Shown: positions 21,662 to 59,748, counted from the stretch's first letter. The stretch is 64,000 nt of DNA from Fibrobacter succinogenes (GCF_902779965.1 NZ_CACZDK010000018.1:1-64000); one strand, 5' to 3'. Notes: generated by a model from the sequence alone, not told the origin. Numbers and translations: made by a program.

Positions 21662-21742
21662 TGATTAAAATAGAAGCATCCACTCAAGGCAGAATGCCTT
21701 ATCCTAACTTGCCAAATACCCCTTCAATAGTTAATTTTATGG

Positions 21743-21826
21743 CGCTTACGGGAGCTCGTAAAACGGGCTGAGAGGAAGTTGAAAACTTCGACCGAACCTG
21801 ATTTGGATAATGCCAACGTAGGGAGG
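21743..21826 (+). promoter_or_regulatory. TPP riboswitch (THI element)
   Basis: The conserved thi-box cores are present: GGGCTGAGAGG at 21765-21775, and ACCTGATTTGGATAATGCCA at 21796-21815, followed by ACGTAGGGAGG. This senses thiamine diphosphate and turns off the thi genes. The SD of thiS (GGGAGG, 21821-21826) is the last part of the element, so control is probably at translation. There is no separate terminator hairpin between element and gene. Confidence 0.95.
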
Positions 21827-21831
21827 TTCCA

Positions 21832-22038
21832 TTGAACTCAAATCCAGTCAAAATCAACGGTGAAAACGTCACGGCAGCAGGCATGACCATTGCCGAATAT
21901 TTGGCGTCCGCAAATTACGATACAAAACGCATCGCCGTTGAGCGCAATTTGGAAATCGTCCCGAAAGCAAAGTATGCTGAAGTCGTTCTTGAAGCGGGCG
22001 ATGTCGTTGAAGTTGTAAACTTTGTCGGGGGCGGGTGA
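21832..22038 (+). CDS. thiS: sulfur carrier protein ThiS
   Basis: Small ubiquitin-like sulfur carrier of thiazole synthesis; its C-terminal Gly-Gly is adenylated by ThiF and thiocarboxylated. The 68-residue product has the beta-grasp pattern and ends VVNFVGGG. The start is TTG at 21832, five bases after the SD GGGAGG that lies in the riboswitch tail; no ATG is available that would keep the first strand. The stop codon overlaps the thiF start. First gene of thiSFGH. Confidence 0.93.
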   Translation: MNSNPVKINGENVTAAGMTIAEYLASANYDTKRIAVERNLEIVPKAKYAEVVLEAGDVVEVVNFVGGG

Positions 22039-41844: not shown

Positions 41845-42951
41845 ATGGATATTTTGTTTTTTTCCAACATTCCTTCTCCATATTCTATAGCTTATATAAA
41901 CGAGTTGGGAAAATTAGCAAATGTTATTGCTGTATACGAAAAACAATCTTTTAAACATCGAGATTCGAGCTGGAAGTCTTTTTCAGCTCCAAATGTGAAA
42001 AAAATAGTTATAATGAAGGGACTGCCTCTGGGCAGAATATATAAAATATCTTTTGAACCTATTTTTCAAATTTGGAAACATAGGAATTCAAGGATAATTA
42101 TCGCAAATCCTTTAACTCCTTGTGGAATTCTATCCATTTTTTTCTGCAAGTTGTTGCGAATCCCCTTTATCATTCAAAGCGAAGGTGGGCTTGCAAAAAA
42201 CGGCAAAGGTCTAAAGGAACATTTCAAGAAAATAGTGATGCGAGGAGCCTCCTTGTATCTAAGTGGAATGAATCCGAAACATGATTACTTTTTAGCATAT
42301 GGGGCAACTACAGAAAAAATAAAACAGTATCCGTTTTCTTCGTTATATAAAAAGGATTTTCCTAACAGATTATTAAATCAAAAAGAAAAATGCATTTTAC
42401 GAACCGAATTAGGAATAGAAGAAAAAAATGTTGTTCTTTTCGTTGGACAATTTATTTATAGAAAAGGTGTTGATGTTTTGTTGAATGCGTTGTCCATAAC
42501 TCATTCCGAAGTTGGTCTATATTTGATTGGCGGAAAAGAAACTCAAGAATATCGTGATATTATTGACCAATTTGGCTTGAAAAACATTCATTTTATGGAA
42601 TATATTGAATTAAACTCTTTGAAAAAATATTATAGGGCTGCAGATTTTTTCGTTTTGCCAACGAGAGAAGACACTTGGGGACTAGTAATAAATGAAGCCA
42701 TGACTTATGGTTTGCCTATTATTACGACAGATAAATGTGTTGCTGGTCTTGAATTAATCGATGATGGAATAAATGGTTTTTTGGTTCCTGCCGAAAATAC
42801 AAATGCTCTTGTAGAAAAAATCGATTTACTTCTTGACAATCCAAATTTATGTAACAAGATGGCTTTGAATAATTTTGAAAAAATAAAAGATTATAGCTAT
42901 GAAAATATGGCACATGTAATATACAATTATTTGAACAATTTTAATACATAG
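41845..42951 (+). CDS. GT4 family glycosyltransferase
   Basis: A 368-residue GT-B glycosyltransferase starting one base after the chimeric gene. The second domain has the usual signals: VVLFVGQFIYRKGVDVLLNA, FVLPTREDTWGLVINEAMTYGLPII (the donor-binding E-x7-E region). The acceptor domain begins MDILFFSNIPSPYSIAYINE. It is the first gene of a markedly AT-rich run that extends to about 48.6 kb. Donor and acceptor sugars cannot be told from sequence. Confidence 0.88.
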   Translation: MDILFFSNIPSPYSIAYINELGKLANVIAVYEKQSFKHRDSSWKSFSAPNVKKIVIMKGLPLGRIYKISFEPIFQIWKHRNSRIIIANPLTPCGILSIFFCKLLRIPFIIQSEGGLAKNGKGLKEHFKKIVMRGASLYLSGMNPKHDYFLAYGATTEKIKQYPFSSLYKKDFPNRLLNQKEKCILRTELGIEEKNVVLFVGQFIYRKGVDVLLNALSITHSEVGLYLIGGKETQEYRDIIDQFGLKNIHFMEYIELNSLKKYYRAADFFVLPTREDTWGLVINEAMTYGLPIITTDKCVAGLELIDDGINGFLVPAENTNALVEKIDLLLDNPNLCNKMALNNFEKIKDYSYENMAHVIYNYLNNFNT

Positions 42952-55738: not shown

Positions 55739-55747
55739 AAATTACAA

Positions 55748-56135
55748 ATGGAGGTCATAAGTCCCAATACAGCAAAATCCTCCGCCTGAAGCATCTCGGG
55801 TTCAGCGAGAGGAACAAGTAGTGTCAAGAGCCTTTCGCAGAAATAGTTTGTTTATGTACCTCGAGTCCGGTGCTAGAGAGCCACCCTTCCGGAAAATGCG
55901 GAGCCACCGTTCCGGTCGAACAGAGCCATCCCACAAACGGTCAAGAAAAACTCTATAATGGGATAGCCCGTCGCAATGTCGCGACGGGTTTTCCAATGGA
56001 GGTCACATGACCAAATACCGCGAAATCCTCCGGCTGAAGCATCTCGGCTTCAGCGAGAGGAACATCGCAAGGACGGCGGGCGTATCCCGCAACACGGTGA
56101 AACGTGTCGTGGCAGAGCATTCTGCTGGTTTGTAA
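55748..56135 (+). mobile_element. IS21-family remnants (left ends and istA 5' fragments)
   Basis: The frame 56007-56135 encodes about 42 residues of IstA, the IS21 transposase: TKYREILRLKHLGFSERNIA then a helix-turn-helix SRNTVKRVV, ending at a stop after SAGL. Upstream, three direct repeats of GAGCCACC-TTCCGG type at 55877-55892, 55900-55915 and 55922-55934 (spaced 22-23 bases) resemble the multiple terminal repeats of IS21 ends, and a CCCGTCGC/GCGACGGG hairpin lies at 55967-55988. A second, more damaged copy of the istA start is at 55748-55817. No istB is present, so it cannot move by itself. Confidence 0.75.
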
Positions 56136-56154
56136 AATGTAATTTTCAAAAATG

Positions 56155-56574
56155 TTTCCGAAAATTGGGAAAGTGCTTCAACAAAAGTTTAAGAGGTTTC
56201 CGAAAATTGGGAAAGTGCTTCTACAAAAGTTTGAGAGCTTTCCCAAAAGTGGGAAAGTGCTTCTACAAAAGTTTAAGAGGTTTCCCCAAAACGGGAAAGT
56301 GCTTCAACAAAAGTTTGAGAGCTTTCCCAAAAGTGGGAAAGTGCTTCTACAAAAGTTTAAGGGGTTTCCCAAAAGTGGGAAAGTACTTCTACAAAAGTTT
56401 GAGAGCTTTCCCAAAAGTGGGAAAGTGCTTCTACAAAAGTTTGAGAGCTTTCCCAAAAGTGGGAAAGTGCTCCTACAAAAGTTTGAGGGGTTTCCGAAAA
56501 TTGGGAAAGTACTCCTACAAAAGTTTAAGAGGTTTCCCCAAAATGGGAAAGTGCTTCTACAAAAGTTTAAGAGT
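56155..56574. repeat. array 1: ten tandem 42-bp palindrome-bearing units
   Basis: Ten units of exactly 42 bases. Each begins with an inverted core (TTTCCC-6 nt-GGGAAA, or variants with 5-bp arms) followed by a conserved 24-base stretch of the type GTGCTTCTACAAAAGTTTGA. Units differ at a handful of positions (CTTCAACA/CTTCTACA/CTCCTACA, AAGAGG/GAGAGC). Left border GCTGGTTTGTAAAAT then AATTTTCAAAAATG; right border ATTCCCTTCA. Spacers are not unique, so it is not a CRISPR. The unit length, divisible by three, leaves open frames on both strands, but they encode only FPKVGKCFYKSLRG-like repeats. Confidence 0.92.
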
Positions 56575-56585
56575 ATTCCCTTCAG

Positions 56586-56709
56586 GTAACGTATATTTTC
56601 TTTCGCAAATTTTTTTAAGGGCAAAAATAGGATGTCTCAAAAGGGCATCCTATGGATAGCAATGTAATCAAAAAAACTGATTACACGGCGATATCTTCGT
56701 CTGTCAATT
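56586..56709. repeat. 124-bp duplication, copy 1 (with PDDEXK_2 3' end)
   Basis: Identical to 58242-58365 but for one base. It includes two hairpins, TAGGATG/CATCCTA and TGTAATC/GATTACA, and the last 10 codons of the minus-strand PDDEXK_2 gene. The second hairpin contains that gene's stop codon. Confidence 0.92.
56663..56685 (-). terminator. hairpin at the 3' end of a PDDEXK_2 gene
   Basis: Stem TGTAATC/GATTACA with a 9-base A-rich loop. On the minus strand it contains the stop codon and would end transcription of the PDDEXK_2 gene. The same hairpin sits beyond the gene copy at 63603, where a further 16 codons come first. Confidence 0.5.
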
Positions 56710-57430
56710 TAGGGTTTGCTAGCATGGCATCGACCATTTCGAGCTTGGCCTCAGTCTTTCCTTCTTCCTTGCTTTCATGAAGGTCAAATTCGTAAGTCAT
56801 ATACTTGTTCCTTATGAGAGTGTCGGCTTTGTAATAAGATACCTGGTCATCGATGGTTTCTGTTTCACGGGAGTCTGCATTCCTTGTCGCAAAATACTTC
56901 ATGTAAGCTTTTACAACCGGATTCTCGAACTCTTCGTATTTATTAAATATATAAAAATTCTTAAAGGTACGGTCGCCCAAGGTGATGTTGGAGTCCTCTC
57001 TAGCCCTATTTTCGAAGTGGTAAACTGGGAATCCATGCTTAAAAATGTCCTTGGGGGACAGAAAAATGATGTATTGATCTTTAAGATTGGTGTAAAAGCC
57101 ACCTTTTGAAAGGGCTACTCCATCATCCACGCTTTGGTAGTATCTAGCTCGTTGCGGGAGTTCCTTGGTATCGACCATCTGCATCTCTAAATCAAAGGAA
57201 CGAATCGTTTCTCCGTTCTCGTTCGTTTCTCGTGCGAAAACATCATATCGAACACCCTTGTGTTCCGCATCGTAGCTCAAAACCGCCTCTGGGACAGGCG
57301 TTTCTAAGTGATCGATTTTGATGCCCAGCAGGTGCTCTATGAATGGCTGCGCGATGTGCTTGTTGCTAAAAACGAGCCCGAACATAATCGGGTCGGTGAT
57401 GTCAAGGTCGTCAAAAGATTTTATGTTCAT
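56681..57430 (-). CDS. PD-(D/E)XK (Rpn/PDDEXK_2) family transposase/nuclease, C-terminally cut
   Basis: A 249-residue Rpn-type protein. The family start SFDDLDITDPIMFGLVFSN and the nuclease core are clear: catalytic Asp in GVRYDVFARE and ExQ in FDLEMQMVD, then RARYYQSVDD and TNLKDQYIIFLSP. It ends DEDIAV; the copy at 63603 continues for another 16 residues (ISGIPLDEIQKHRAQR), so a deletion has joined the gene to its terminator hairpin. The residual protein keeps all catalytic residues. Its 5' flank is shared with the copy at 33918. Role: such proteins nick DNA and raise recombination; true transposition is unproven. Confidence 0.88.
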   Translation of the reverse strand: MNIKSFDDLDITDPIMFGLVFSNKHIAQPFIEHLLGIKIDHLETPVPEAVLSYDAEHKGVRYDVFARETNENGETIRSFDLEMQMVDTKELPQRARYYQSVDDGVALSKGGFYTNLKDQYIIFLSPKDIFKHGFPVYHFENRAREDSNITLGDRTFKNFYIFNKYEEFENPVVKAYMKYFATRNADSRETETIDDQVSYYKADTLIRNKYMTYEFDLHESKEEGKTEAKLEMVDAMLANPKLTDEDIAV

Positions 57431-57488
57431 AATTATACCTCTGTAAAGTTTAGAGGTTCTAAATTAAAACGGAAAATTTTCAAAAAGC

Positions 57489-57541
57489 AAAACTTTGCAA
57501 ATTTTGCCAACAAACGCTTGCAAAATCGTTCATTTTGTCAG
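57489..57541 (-). repeat. upstream flank shared with the PDDEXK_2 gene at 33918
   Basis: AAAACTTTGCAAATTTTGCC and what follows match 34733-34788, and the distance to the start codon is the same in both (about 60 bases). It is a promoter or the end of a mobile unit. Confidence 0.65.
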
Positions 57542-57563
57542 CTAAAGCTTTACTCGAAAATAT

Positions 57564-57605
57564 TTTCCGAAAAATGGGAAAGTGCTTCTACAAAAGTTTA
57601 AGAGT
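57564..57605. repeat. single 42-bp unit with the array's right border
   Basis: One 42-base unit (TTTCCGAAAAATGGGAAAGT start) followed by ATTCCCTTCA, exactly the right border of array 1. The usual left border is absent. Confidence 0.85.
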
Positions 57606-57635
57606 ATTCCCTTCATGCCTTGAGTCGAATGCTAC

Positions 57636-57665
57636 TTGACAGAAAAAATCATTAGATAGTATATT
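57636..57665 (+). promoter_or_regulatory. sigma-70-type promoter candidate for the amidase gene
   Basis: TTGACA at 57636-57641 and TATATT at 57660-57665, spaced 18 bases, lie 24 bases before the amidase ATG. It is among the clearest consensus promoters in the window and starts just after a 42-bp repeat unit. Confidence 0.55.
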
Positions 57666-57688
57666 TAGTATGAAGAAGGAGTATGCCA

Positions 57689-58234
57689 ATGTCCACTTTT
57701 ACCAATAGCCCCTTAGTGGCCTATGTTGCATTGTCGCCGAACAAGACGACAATACGTACACACGCCATCGATACAATAACTATTCATTGCACGGCAGGTC
57801 AAATGACGGTAGAACAGCTTGGCGAGTGCTTTGCCAACAAGGCCCGCAAGGCTTCGTCTAATTACGGAATCGGCTTGGATGGTCGTATTGCCATGTTTGT
57901 GCCGGAATCGTCCCGCAGCTGGTGCAGCAGCAATGCCGCGAATGATCATCGGGCTATCACCATCGAGGTGTCAAGCGATGCTAAATCGCCATATGCTGTA
58001 AATGATGCGGCCTATGCGTCCCTCATTTACCTTGTTGCTGATGTCTGCCGTCGAAACGGTATCGCTAAATTGCGCTGGATGCACAACAAGTCTTTGATAG
58101 GGAAGTGTGGCGAAGATGGAAGATTACTGCAAAACCTTACTATGCACAAATGGTTTGCGAACAAAGCCTGTCCGGGAGCTTTTTTAGAAGAGCGCTTGTT
58201 CGATATCGTCGCAAAGGTGAATTGCTTGATTTAA
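57689..58234 (+). CDS. N-acetylmuramoyl-L-alanine amidase-like (Amidase_2/PGRP) protein
   Basis: A 181-residue protein resembling phage-type peptidoglycan amidases (T7-lysozyme/PGRP fold). Candidate zinc ligands are His in TITIHCTAG, the later His in RWMHNKS, and the Cys in NKACPGAFLEERL, which stands where Amidase_2 enzymes have their last ligand. SSNYGIGLDGRIAMFVPE is the central strand pattern. No signal peptide is present, as in phage endolysins. The ATG at 57689 is favoured because AGAAGGA lies 8 bases upstream; another ATG is at 57683. It lies alone between repeat units and PDDEXK_2 genes, so it looks like cargo or a prophage relic. Confidence 0.82.
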   Translation: MSTFTNSPLVAYVALSPNKTTIRTHAIDTITIHCTAGQMTVEQLGECFANKARKASSNYGIGLDGRIAMFVPESSRSWCSSNAANDHRAITIEVSSDAKSPYAVNDAAYASLIYLVADVCRRNGIAKLRWMHNKSLIGKCGEDGRLLQNLTMHKWFANKACPGAFLEERLFDIVAKVNCLI

Positions 58235-58241
58235 TTCACCC

Positions 58242-58365
58242 GTAACGTATATTTTCTTTCGCAAATTTTTTTAAGGGCAAAAATAGGATGTCTCAAAAGG
58301 GCATCCTATGGATAGCAATGTAATCAAAAAAACTGATTACACGGCAATATCTTCGTCTGTCAATT
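58242..58365. repeat. 124-bp duplication, copy 2 (with remnant of a PDDEXK_2 3' end)
   Basis: Matches 56586-56709 with one difference. Here the final bases (GATTACACGGCAATATC and on) are all that is left of a PDDEXK_2 gene; the sequence then departs. Together with array 2 it fills the 467-base gap 58235-58701, which holds no gene. Confidence 0.92.
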
Positions 58366-58447
58366 AAATGTTTGCAAGTAAAGCATATTGAAGTTCTTTC
58401 CTCAACAGAGCATTCTGCTGGTTTGTAAAATATAATTTTCAAAAGTG

Positions 58448-58572
58448 TTTCCCAAAAATGGGAAAGTGCTTCGACAAAAGTTTAAGGGGTTTCCGAAAAT
58501 TGGGAAAGTACTTCGACAAAAGTTTAAGTGGTTTCCCAAAATGGGAAAGGGCTCCTACAAAAGTTTACGAGC
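58448..58572. repeat. array 2: three units of the 42-bp repeat
   Basis: Units at 58448-58489 and 58490-58531 are 42 bases; the third (58532-58572) has lost one base. The left flank CAGAGCATTCTGCTGGTTTG, starting at 58406, is the same as the left flank of array 1, including the istA-derived bases, so the two arrays share ancestry. Right border GTTCCCTT. Confidence 0.9.
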
Positions 58573-58701
58573 GTTCCCTTAAAGAATATTTTACATAAAA
58601 GTTTCCGGACAAATAGACCGCCAAAGTGTGTTAATGTAATGGAGGGCAAACTCTGCAAACTTGCCTTCCTGGATTTAACCGCCGTATTGGCAAGGATCAT
58701 C

Positions 58702-59748
58702 ATGTCTGAAAATCAAAAAACAATCGAATTTACCATTACAACTTCTCGTGATCAATTGGTTGACAAAACCATCGAAGAAATCAAGAAACACACTTATCTC
58801 GACCCGCTCTTTGATGCGGCATTCAAGGCTTTATTAAGCGATGAAGAAGCTCTAGTAAATTTCTTAAATGGAGTATTTCACCTAAAAGAGAGTAACAAAA
58901 TTGAATCGGTAGTCATCAAGAATTCAGAAATCAACGTCATTTTTCCGGCAGTCAAGTCGTTCAGGCTCGATATCCGAGCGACAACCTCGAATGGCATTCA
59001 CATTAATGTGGAGATGCAGAAAGCAAAACCCGACTATTTTGTCGATAGAGTCCTTTTGCAGCATAGCGCCTTTATGCTCCAAAGCAAATACGAATGGGAC
59101 CAGCTGAATTTTGGAAATCTTCCTACCAATTTGACAAAAGAACAACGCGCTACACGCGAAATCCACCGTTACGAGGTCCCGCCAACCTACGCCATTTGGA
59201 TTTGCGACTTTCCCATAAGCGAACAGAAAAATTTCCGTGGCGATTGGGCTGTCCGCAGCAAGGAGGGCTTGACGCTGAGCGACAAGATGATGTATATTCT
59301 ATATGACCTGACGAAGTTCAACAAAACCTTCGAAAAAATCGTGACCGCAGAGGATCGCTGGCTTTACCTGCTCAAACACGCTGGCAAAGCAGAAAAACTC
59401 CCGAACTTCAACGATTCCGTTATTGCGAAGGCAATTCACAGGATCTTAGTGAACCGAGCGTCAGAAAAACTCATCAAGGACCAGGCTAACGATATGGTAT
59501 GGACAGAAGAAGAATTGGATCGTTGGGCTTTACTAGAAGTTCGTGCCGAACAAAAGGCCATTGCAAAAGGACATAAACAAGGTCTTGAACAAGGGCTTAT
59601 TCAAGGTCTTGAACAGGGACGAGTTGAAATGGCTCTCGATATGCTATCCAACAACGAACCTATCGAGAAAATTGTCAAGTACTCGCATCTGCCCGAAAGC
59701 AAGATTCTTGAGCTTAAGGCTTCATTGTCAGGCTATGCAACCAAGTAA
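58702..59748 (+). CDS. PD-(D/E)XK (Rpn/PDDEXK_2) family transposase/nuclease, full length
   Basis: A 348-residue Rpn family protein and the most complete copy in the window. From ATG 58702 (SD AAGGA) it has the family N-terminus TYLDPLFDAAFKALL, the nuclease core with Asp in SFRLDIRATT and ExQ in INVEMQKAKPDYF, then RVLLQHSAFM, YAIWICDFPI and the C-terminal Gly-Gln repeat helix (GHKQGLEQGLIQGLEQGR), typical of this family. The open frame upstream of 58702 is array-derived and is not part of the protein. It should act on DNA; self-mobility is not demonstrated. Confidence 0.92.
   Translation: MSENQKTIEFTITTSRDQLVDKTIEEIKKHTYLDPLFDAAFKALLSDEEALVNFLNGVFHLKESNKIESVVIKNSEINVIFPAVKSFRLDIRATTSNGIHINVEMQKAKPDYFVDRVLLQHSAFMLQSKYEWDQLNFGNLPTNLTKEQRATREIHRYEVPPTYAIWICDFPISEQKNFRGDWAVRSKEGLTLSDKMMYILYDLTKFNKTFEKIVTAEDRWLYLLKHAGKAEKLPNFNDSVIAKAIHRILVNRASEKLIKDQANDMVWTEEELDRWALLEVRAEQKAIAKGHKQGLEQGLIQGLEQGRVEMALDMLSNNEPIEKIVKYSHLPESKILELKASLSGYATK

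Follow-up and report, generated by a model that had tools for sequence, protein, structure and literature searches.

Orphan arrays of 42-bp palindromic units in Fibrobacter succinogenes probably derive from a tandem array that adjoins a DUF6261 gene

Tandem arrays with a pitch of 41–43 bp accompany genes of the family DUF6261 (PF19775) in two bacterial phyla, and the repeats that we describe here from Fibrobacter succinogenes appear best explained as displaced or duplicate copies of one such array, which is located together with its DUF6261 gene elsewhere in the same genome. The repeats lie in a stretch of 64,000 nt (GCF_902779965.1, NZ_CACZDK010000018.1:1-64000), hereafter called the window. 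No description of a system consisting of DUF6261 and an array was found in the literature searched; the family is reportedly named in a study of daptomycin resistance in Streptococcus oralis.

Within the window, 42-bp units are present at three sites in the numbers 10, 1 and 3 (Table 1). TRF called the first array at 56154–56580 with a 42-bp period, 10.2 copies and a score of 644, and the three-copy array at 58443–58567. TRF and the unit-by-unit layout bore out the 10 + 1 + 3 units with one common unit sequence that had been proposed in an earlier note on this DNA, and its statement that this is not a CRISPR array holds as well, as every position of the unit is repeated and unique spacers are absent. 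The arrangement around two PDDEXK_2 genes and one Amidase_2 gene was recovered by profile search as it had been given. Two further claims stood in part. Borders had been reported as common to the copies: the right border is TTCCCTT at each of the three sites, while the left border AATTTTCAAAA, within a shared flank of ~41 bp, is common to arrays 1 and 3 only and differs at the single unit. The inverted core TTTCCC/GGGAAA, described for every unit, is found in most of them, and some carry TTTCCG instead. A window unit is composed of an 18-bp palindrome of the form TTTC-N10-GAAA, for example TTTCCCAAAAGTGGGAAA, and a remainder, CTTCTACAAAAGTTTAAG, which constitutes a second, imperfect palindrome.

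Table 1. Features of the repeat region and its neighbouring genes; positions are counted from the first nucleotide of the window.
Feature	Position	Strand	Basis
Left flank of array 1, ~41 bp, common with array 3 (58406–58445); tail of truncated IstA-like ORF	56113..56153	+	
Orphan array 1, ten units of 42 bp; 18-bp palindrome TTTC-N10-GAAA and second imperfect palindrome CTTCTACAAAAGTTTAAG in each unit	56154..56573	+	TRF, unit layout
Partial unit / right border TATTCCC	56574..56580	+	
145-bp segment, 94.5% identical to 58242–58386	56586..56730	+	Sequence comparison
PDDEXK_2 (Rpn-like) gene, 249 aa, matches first half of profile; bystander	56681..57430	-	Profile match, E 6e-8
Single orphan unit; border TATTCCC follows at 57604–57611	57562..57603	+	
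Amidase_2 gene; bystander	57683..58234	+	Profile match, E 2e-20
Orphan array 3: three units, third 1–2 bases short, right border CGTTCCC (58572–58578)	58446..58571	+	TRF, unit layout
PDDEXK_2 (Rpn-like) gene	58704..59748	+	Profile match

Arrays 1 and 3 share the left flank, and the 145-bp segment on the right of array 1 is found again on the left of array 3, from which it follows that the region underwent segmental duplication; the two copies of the 145-bp segment are a remnant of this event around the arrays. Adjoining array 1, at 55747–56133, two partial copies of an ORF were noticed that by eye resemble the N-terminus of an IS21-type IstA. Farther away, the window contains a TPP riboswitch at 21737–21841 (Rfam RF00059, 58 bits).

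In the remainder of the 4.09-Mb genome the unit occurs at one place only, on contig C29 (about 42036–42490), where ~11 units are found and ten units are 91.9% identical to array 1 over 419 bp. The C29 array sits between a cas12a gene and a gene matching PF19775 (E 1e-19), directly upstream of the latter. Related repeats in a second genome (G009), 73% identical, are likewise directly upstream of a DUF6261 gene, so that the neighbour common to both arrays is DUF6261 and not cas12a. The C29 locus thus unites the two elements by which we recognise the array system, an array of 41–43-bp period and an adjoining PF19775 gene. In the window, neither a DUF6261 gene nor a remnant of one is present to which the arrays could be adjacent, and for this reason we call them orphan copies. 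A 24-nt near match to the unit inside a gene on contig C7 (E 0.007; counterparts in G006 and G146) was set aside, since its neighbourhood in G000 and G006 makes it look like a coincidence within coding sequence. An apparently complete type V CRISPR locus directly adjoins the DUF6261 array of C29 (L021:874-7722, G000:C29); it comprises cas12a (1262 aa, Pfam match), cas4-, cas1- and cas2-like genes and a repeat array. Short Rpn-like PDDEXK_2 fragments between the C29 array and cas12a (L021:7844-7960) match window positions 59332–59521.

To follow the association, every DUF6261 match in 168 Fibrobacterota genomes was listed, a Bacteroidota sample and one annotated Prevotella nigrescens locus were added, and 111 loci were analysed. 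DUF6261 occurred in 36 of the 168 Fibrobacterota genomes and, in one Bacteroidota family, in 85 of 246 genomes. TRF detected an upstream tandem array with a period of 40–43 at 65 of the 111 loci and, at five others that all lack an upstream array, a downstream array of the same period; the arrays consist of 2–12 tandem units of 41–43 bp. About 40% of the loci had no TRF array, several of them still being weakly 41–43-periodic. By autocorrelation, a TRF-independent test for which shuffled sequence reached a maximum z of 4.9, 70 loci exceeded z = 6 upstream, 68 of them at a lag of 40–43. A replication set of 68 further loci from one Bacteroidota family, picked from the match list and not by array content, yielded 29 upstream and no downstream arrays with TRF; z > 6 fell at lag 41–42 in 38 of 40, and the best lag was 41–42 in 56 of the 68. 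Unrelated loci from the same search, which served as control, contained no array of period 38–46 in 68.6 kb, so that chance is a wholly inadequate explanation of the window arrays. Across both phyla it is the DUF6261 gene with which the arrays are associated, a link that is well supported. Four of the five loci with downstream arrays (L055, L101, L108, L122, L124) show the opposite base skew. The arrays at L103 and L098 (-960 to -200 upstream) are long and heterogeneous, with 15 units in which some blocks are constant and others variable; elsewhere the units are near-identical.

The earlier note had regarded the arrays as a possible recombination target of the neighbouring PDDEXK_2 enzymes. 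Rpn-like genes or fragments do lie within 2 kb of both array loci in this genome, and the orthologous locus L049 also has one nearby. Against this, the genome contains 26 PDDEXK_2 matches and two array loci only, and a related gene was within ~1.5 kb at just 3 of the 111 DUF6261 loci. By these counts the idea that the arrays are recombination targets or substrates of these nucleases, which we consider very improbable, is largely refuted, and the PDDEXK_2 link is local. Homologous recombination between Rpn copies could account for the local co-occurrence. The PDDEXK_2 gene at 58704–59748 has a copy of ~89% nucleotide identity next to the array and the DUF6261 gene of C29. Since both array loci are flanked by Rpn-like copies, the array may well have come into the window through homologous recombination between these copies. 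The more general suggestion of a protein-binding array was upheld as a possibility, with PDDEXK_2 lost as its proposed partner.

The units of DUF6261 arrays are largely private to their locus. They fell into 60 mutually dissimilar clusters, and in 92 of 93 within-genome paralog pairs the units differ, one pair sharing its unit. Genome searches, each made with that genome's own unit, located the array at the DUF6261 locus alone; the exceptions were single additional fragments in G011 and G114, possibly products of broken assembly. Measured against this confinement, the orphan arrays of the window are exceptional. Over the 60 clusters the units are dyad-symmetric beyond shuffled sequence (combined Z 12). 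A pitch of 41–43 bp corresponds to four turns of B-DNA, and in a tandem repeat dyad symmetry implies a spacing of ~21 bp (two turns, half a period) between the axes. The form TTTC-N10-GAAA, to which the window unit belongs, has 79 occurrences within 600 bp upstream over all loci, compared with 7 on the downstream side. In contrast to the first palindrome, which changes, the second one varies little (TTGCACCCCTGCAA in Bacteroidota, CTTAAACTTTTGTAGAAG in Fibrobacter).

Two other readings were considered. Slippage or unequal crossing-over could have expanded a neutral minisatellite that hitchhikes near DUF6261 genes and binds no protein. As in satellites, the units of one locus are homogenised and those of different loci divergent, and copy number varies between orthologs (10.8 versus 12.4 units in L106 and L107). 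For neutral repeats, however, one would not expect the same pitch to be retained over unrelated units and two phyla, nor dyad symmetry, nor a correlation with the N-terminus of the protein (see below), nor control DNA devoid of such arrays, and we therefore regard this origin as improbable. The alternative that the array codes for a protein of 14-residue repeats draws on 42 being a multiple of 3 and on several open frames (ORF 56152–56589). It was rejected and is almost certainly wrong, because related arrays of 41- and 43-bp period break any reading frame; in addition, the translated ORF matched no family in the profile search.

The DUF6261 protein consists of ~250 aa and looks largely helical from its sequence. 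No DNA-binding domain was recognised in it by Pfam, NCBIfam or PDB sequence search, and at the same level there was no trustworthy toxin, ParB or Nop match. In close homologs, residues 4–11 are hypervariable (mismatch 0.65 versus ~0.33 elsewhere; 0.44 versus ~0.15). This octapeptide is preceded by the conserved start MKI and followed by an LRN motif. Two proteins encoded in the same genome (L031 and L080) have bodies that are 94% identical, differ in 8 of 8 N-terminal residues and have unrelated arrays; conversely, L070 and L075, with bodies of 75% identity, have an identical N-terminal segment and arrays that are 95% identical. A counter-case comes from the Fibrobacter clade, in which L026 and L049 have 4 of 8 N-terminal residues in common and units that are 88% identical. 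The pair L098/L103, considered as near-identical proteins with unrelated arrays, was left out of the evidence because their arrays turned out to be homologous but rearranged.

A possible recognition code was analysed in 21 related loci of one clade, whose proteins carry an LRNAEYL-like motif. With motif classes read by eye from the data and not set beforehand, IDLPKL (5/5 loci) and IDLTKL pair with TTTCGGG...CCCGAAA, IELxLL pairs with TTTCC...GGAAA (7/7 loci) and IHLPxL with TTTCTC...GAGAAA (2/2 loci). In these 21 loci, array similarity correlated with N-terminal identity when the body was controlled for (partial Mantel r 0.25, p = 0.002), and with body identity when the N-terminus was controlled for (r 0.35, p = 0.001). 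In this one clade, the octapeptide predicts the palindrome.

The arrays might act as DNA sites or as RNA. In the latter case, a transcript of the array would be processed to ~42-nt hairpin RNAs bound by DUF6261, in the manner of a type III toxin–antitoxin antitoxin or of TIGR-Tas-like guides. The anatomy resembles that of TIGR arrays (PMC12045711) and ToxIN (PMC8860590), with one protein, 2–12 units, an upstream or downstream position and units that vary between loci. Moreover, the predicted folds of the units are better than those of dinucleotide-shuffled sequence (mean z about -2.7), compensatory arm changes in the arrays of L059 and L103 fit hairpins better than operators, and an ACCCC loop motif is strand-biased in some arrays (7 versus 0). 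Within-array covariation at first appeared strong (combined Z 6.7) but became marginal (Z 2.0) after the whole procedure was applied to column-permuted alignments, and is therefore not claimed. On the other side, hairpin potential is equal in sense and antisense orientation, G-U pairs show no excess over A-C pairs (crude folds; dyad-based pairs), a terminator between array and gene was found at only 3 of 55 loci with the antisense strand giving equal results, and no Rfam family matched the arrays of 20 loci and the window. These four results together favour palindromic DNA sites. The protein, too, has no match to the ToxN or Nop families, and hypervariable 9-nt spacers are missing from arrays whose units are mostly near-identical. 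We consider an RNA array unlikely, and DNA sites about twice as probable as RNA.

Palindromic DNA sites in tandem have a known counterpart in sopC (parS_F) of the F plasmid, where the ParB protein SopB binds twelve tandem repeats of 43 bp that contain inverted repeats of 16 bp (PMC6238139). DUF6261 loci are similar in having 2–12 units of 41–43 bp with an 18-bp inverted repeat and one adjoining gene, and they possess the tandem sites with inverted repeats that characterise ParABS systems. They differ in that Pfam gave no convincing ParB-family or ribbon-helix-helix domain for DUF6261, and the arrays are here not plasmid-borne, are multi-copy with private sequences and lie mostly upstream of the gene. 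No recurrent neighbour family resembling a partner, such as a ParA-type ATPase, was found within ~1.5 kb across DUF6261 loci, and because a ParA partner is lacking we do not assign the system to ParABS. The ribbon-helix-helix ParB protein omega of pSM19035, small and dimeric, binds contiguous parS heptad arrays and requires at least 4 repeats for full activity (PMC9499535). By eye only, the N-terminus of DUF6261, a strand-like segment followed by a helix, is reminiscent of proteins of this kind, whereas the repeat measures 42 bp instead of 7 bp, and both an ATPase partner and a recognised ribbon-helix-helix domain are absent.

Among systems with a single protein, that of TIGR-Tas is helical, and its array, upstream or downstream of the gene, is built of dyad-like units whose repeats vary between loci (PMC12045711). 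DUF6261 arrays are likewise dyad-like, locus-specific and placed on either side of one gene. Their pitch is 41–43 instead of 36, however, and in place of two alternating repeats of 8–12 nt with 9-nt variable spacers they show low within-array variation that is not arranged in two 9-nt blocks; at the level of sequence, a Nop domain was not detected by Pfam or PDB search. Six query sets gave no DUF6261 relative in viral contigs, and none was found in phage records. In the type III toxin–antitoxin system ToxIN, too, an array of tandem repeats precedes a single gene (PMC8860590), as at DUF6261 loci, but the latter lack a ToxN match (Pfam, NCBIfam), a regular terminator and strand bias; with ToxN and terminator absent, the system is not classed as type III toxin–antitoxin. 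BrickBuilt of P. gingivalis is a MITE minisatellite with 23-nt repeats inside dispersed MITEs (PMC4596501). It shares with the present arrays the tandem organisation in intergenic DNA, in its case of a Bacteroidota species, while DUF6261 arrays go with a single gene family and have a sequence private to each locus. In contrast to the dispersal independent of one gene family that marks MITE and REP elements, they were essentially confined to DUF6261 loci in the genomes tested, the window being the exception.

On balance we favour, at slightly better than even chances, a model in which DUF6261 dimers bind the phased palindromes via their N-terminal segment and form a nucleoprotein array in cis, the window holding orphan duplicates. 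A DUF6261 locus would then be a one-gene system of a protein and its adjoining tandem array. Each dimer would read one palindrome, TTTC-N10-GAAA at many loci, with the hypervariable segment, and dimers could stack on one face of the helically phased array to give a platform beside the promoter of their own gene, possibly used for autoregulation and/or centromere-like anchoring. The three window sites may provide extra sites in trans for the protein encoded on C29. Direct binding, to DNA rather than RNA, is something that we infer, as we do the dimer geometry and the cellular role. More tentatively, and at somewhat less than even chances, DUF6261 with its private array may represent an undescribed class of single-protein systems in which octapeptide and palindrome co-diversify, each paralog having an orthogonal DNA or RNA address, so that a natural code would extend over two phyla.

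With these results DUF6261 can be paired with a definite companion, a tandem array whose pitch is constant and whose sequence is private to its locus. Should the palindrome be read by the N-terminal segment, the many natural pairs of protein and array would provide a code that is directly testable by swaps of eight residues, and an uncharacterised gene family would become experimentally accessible.
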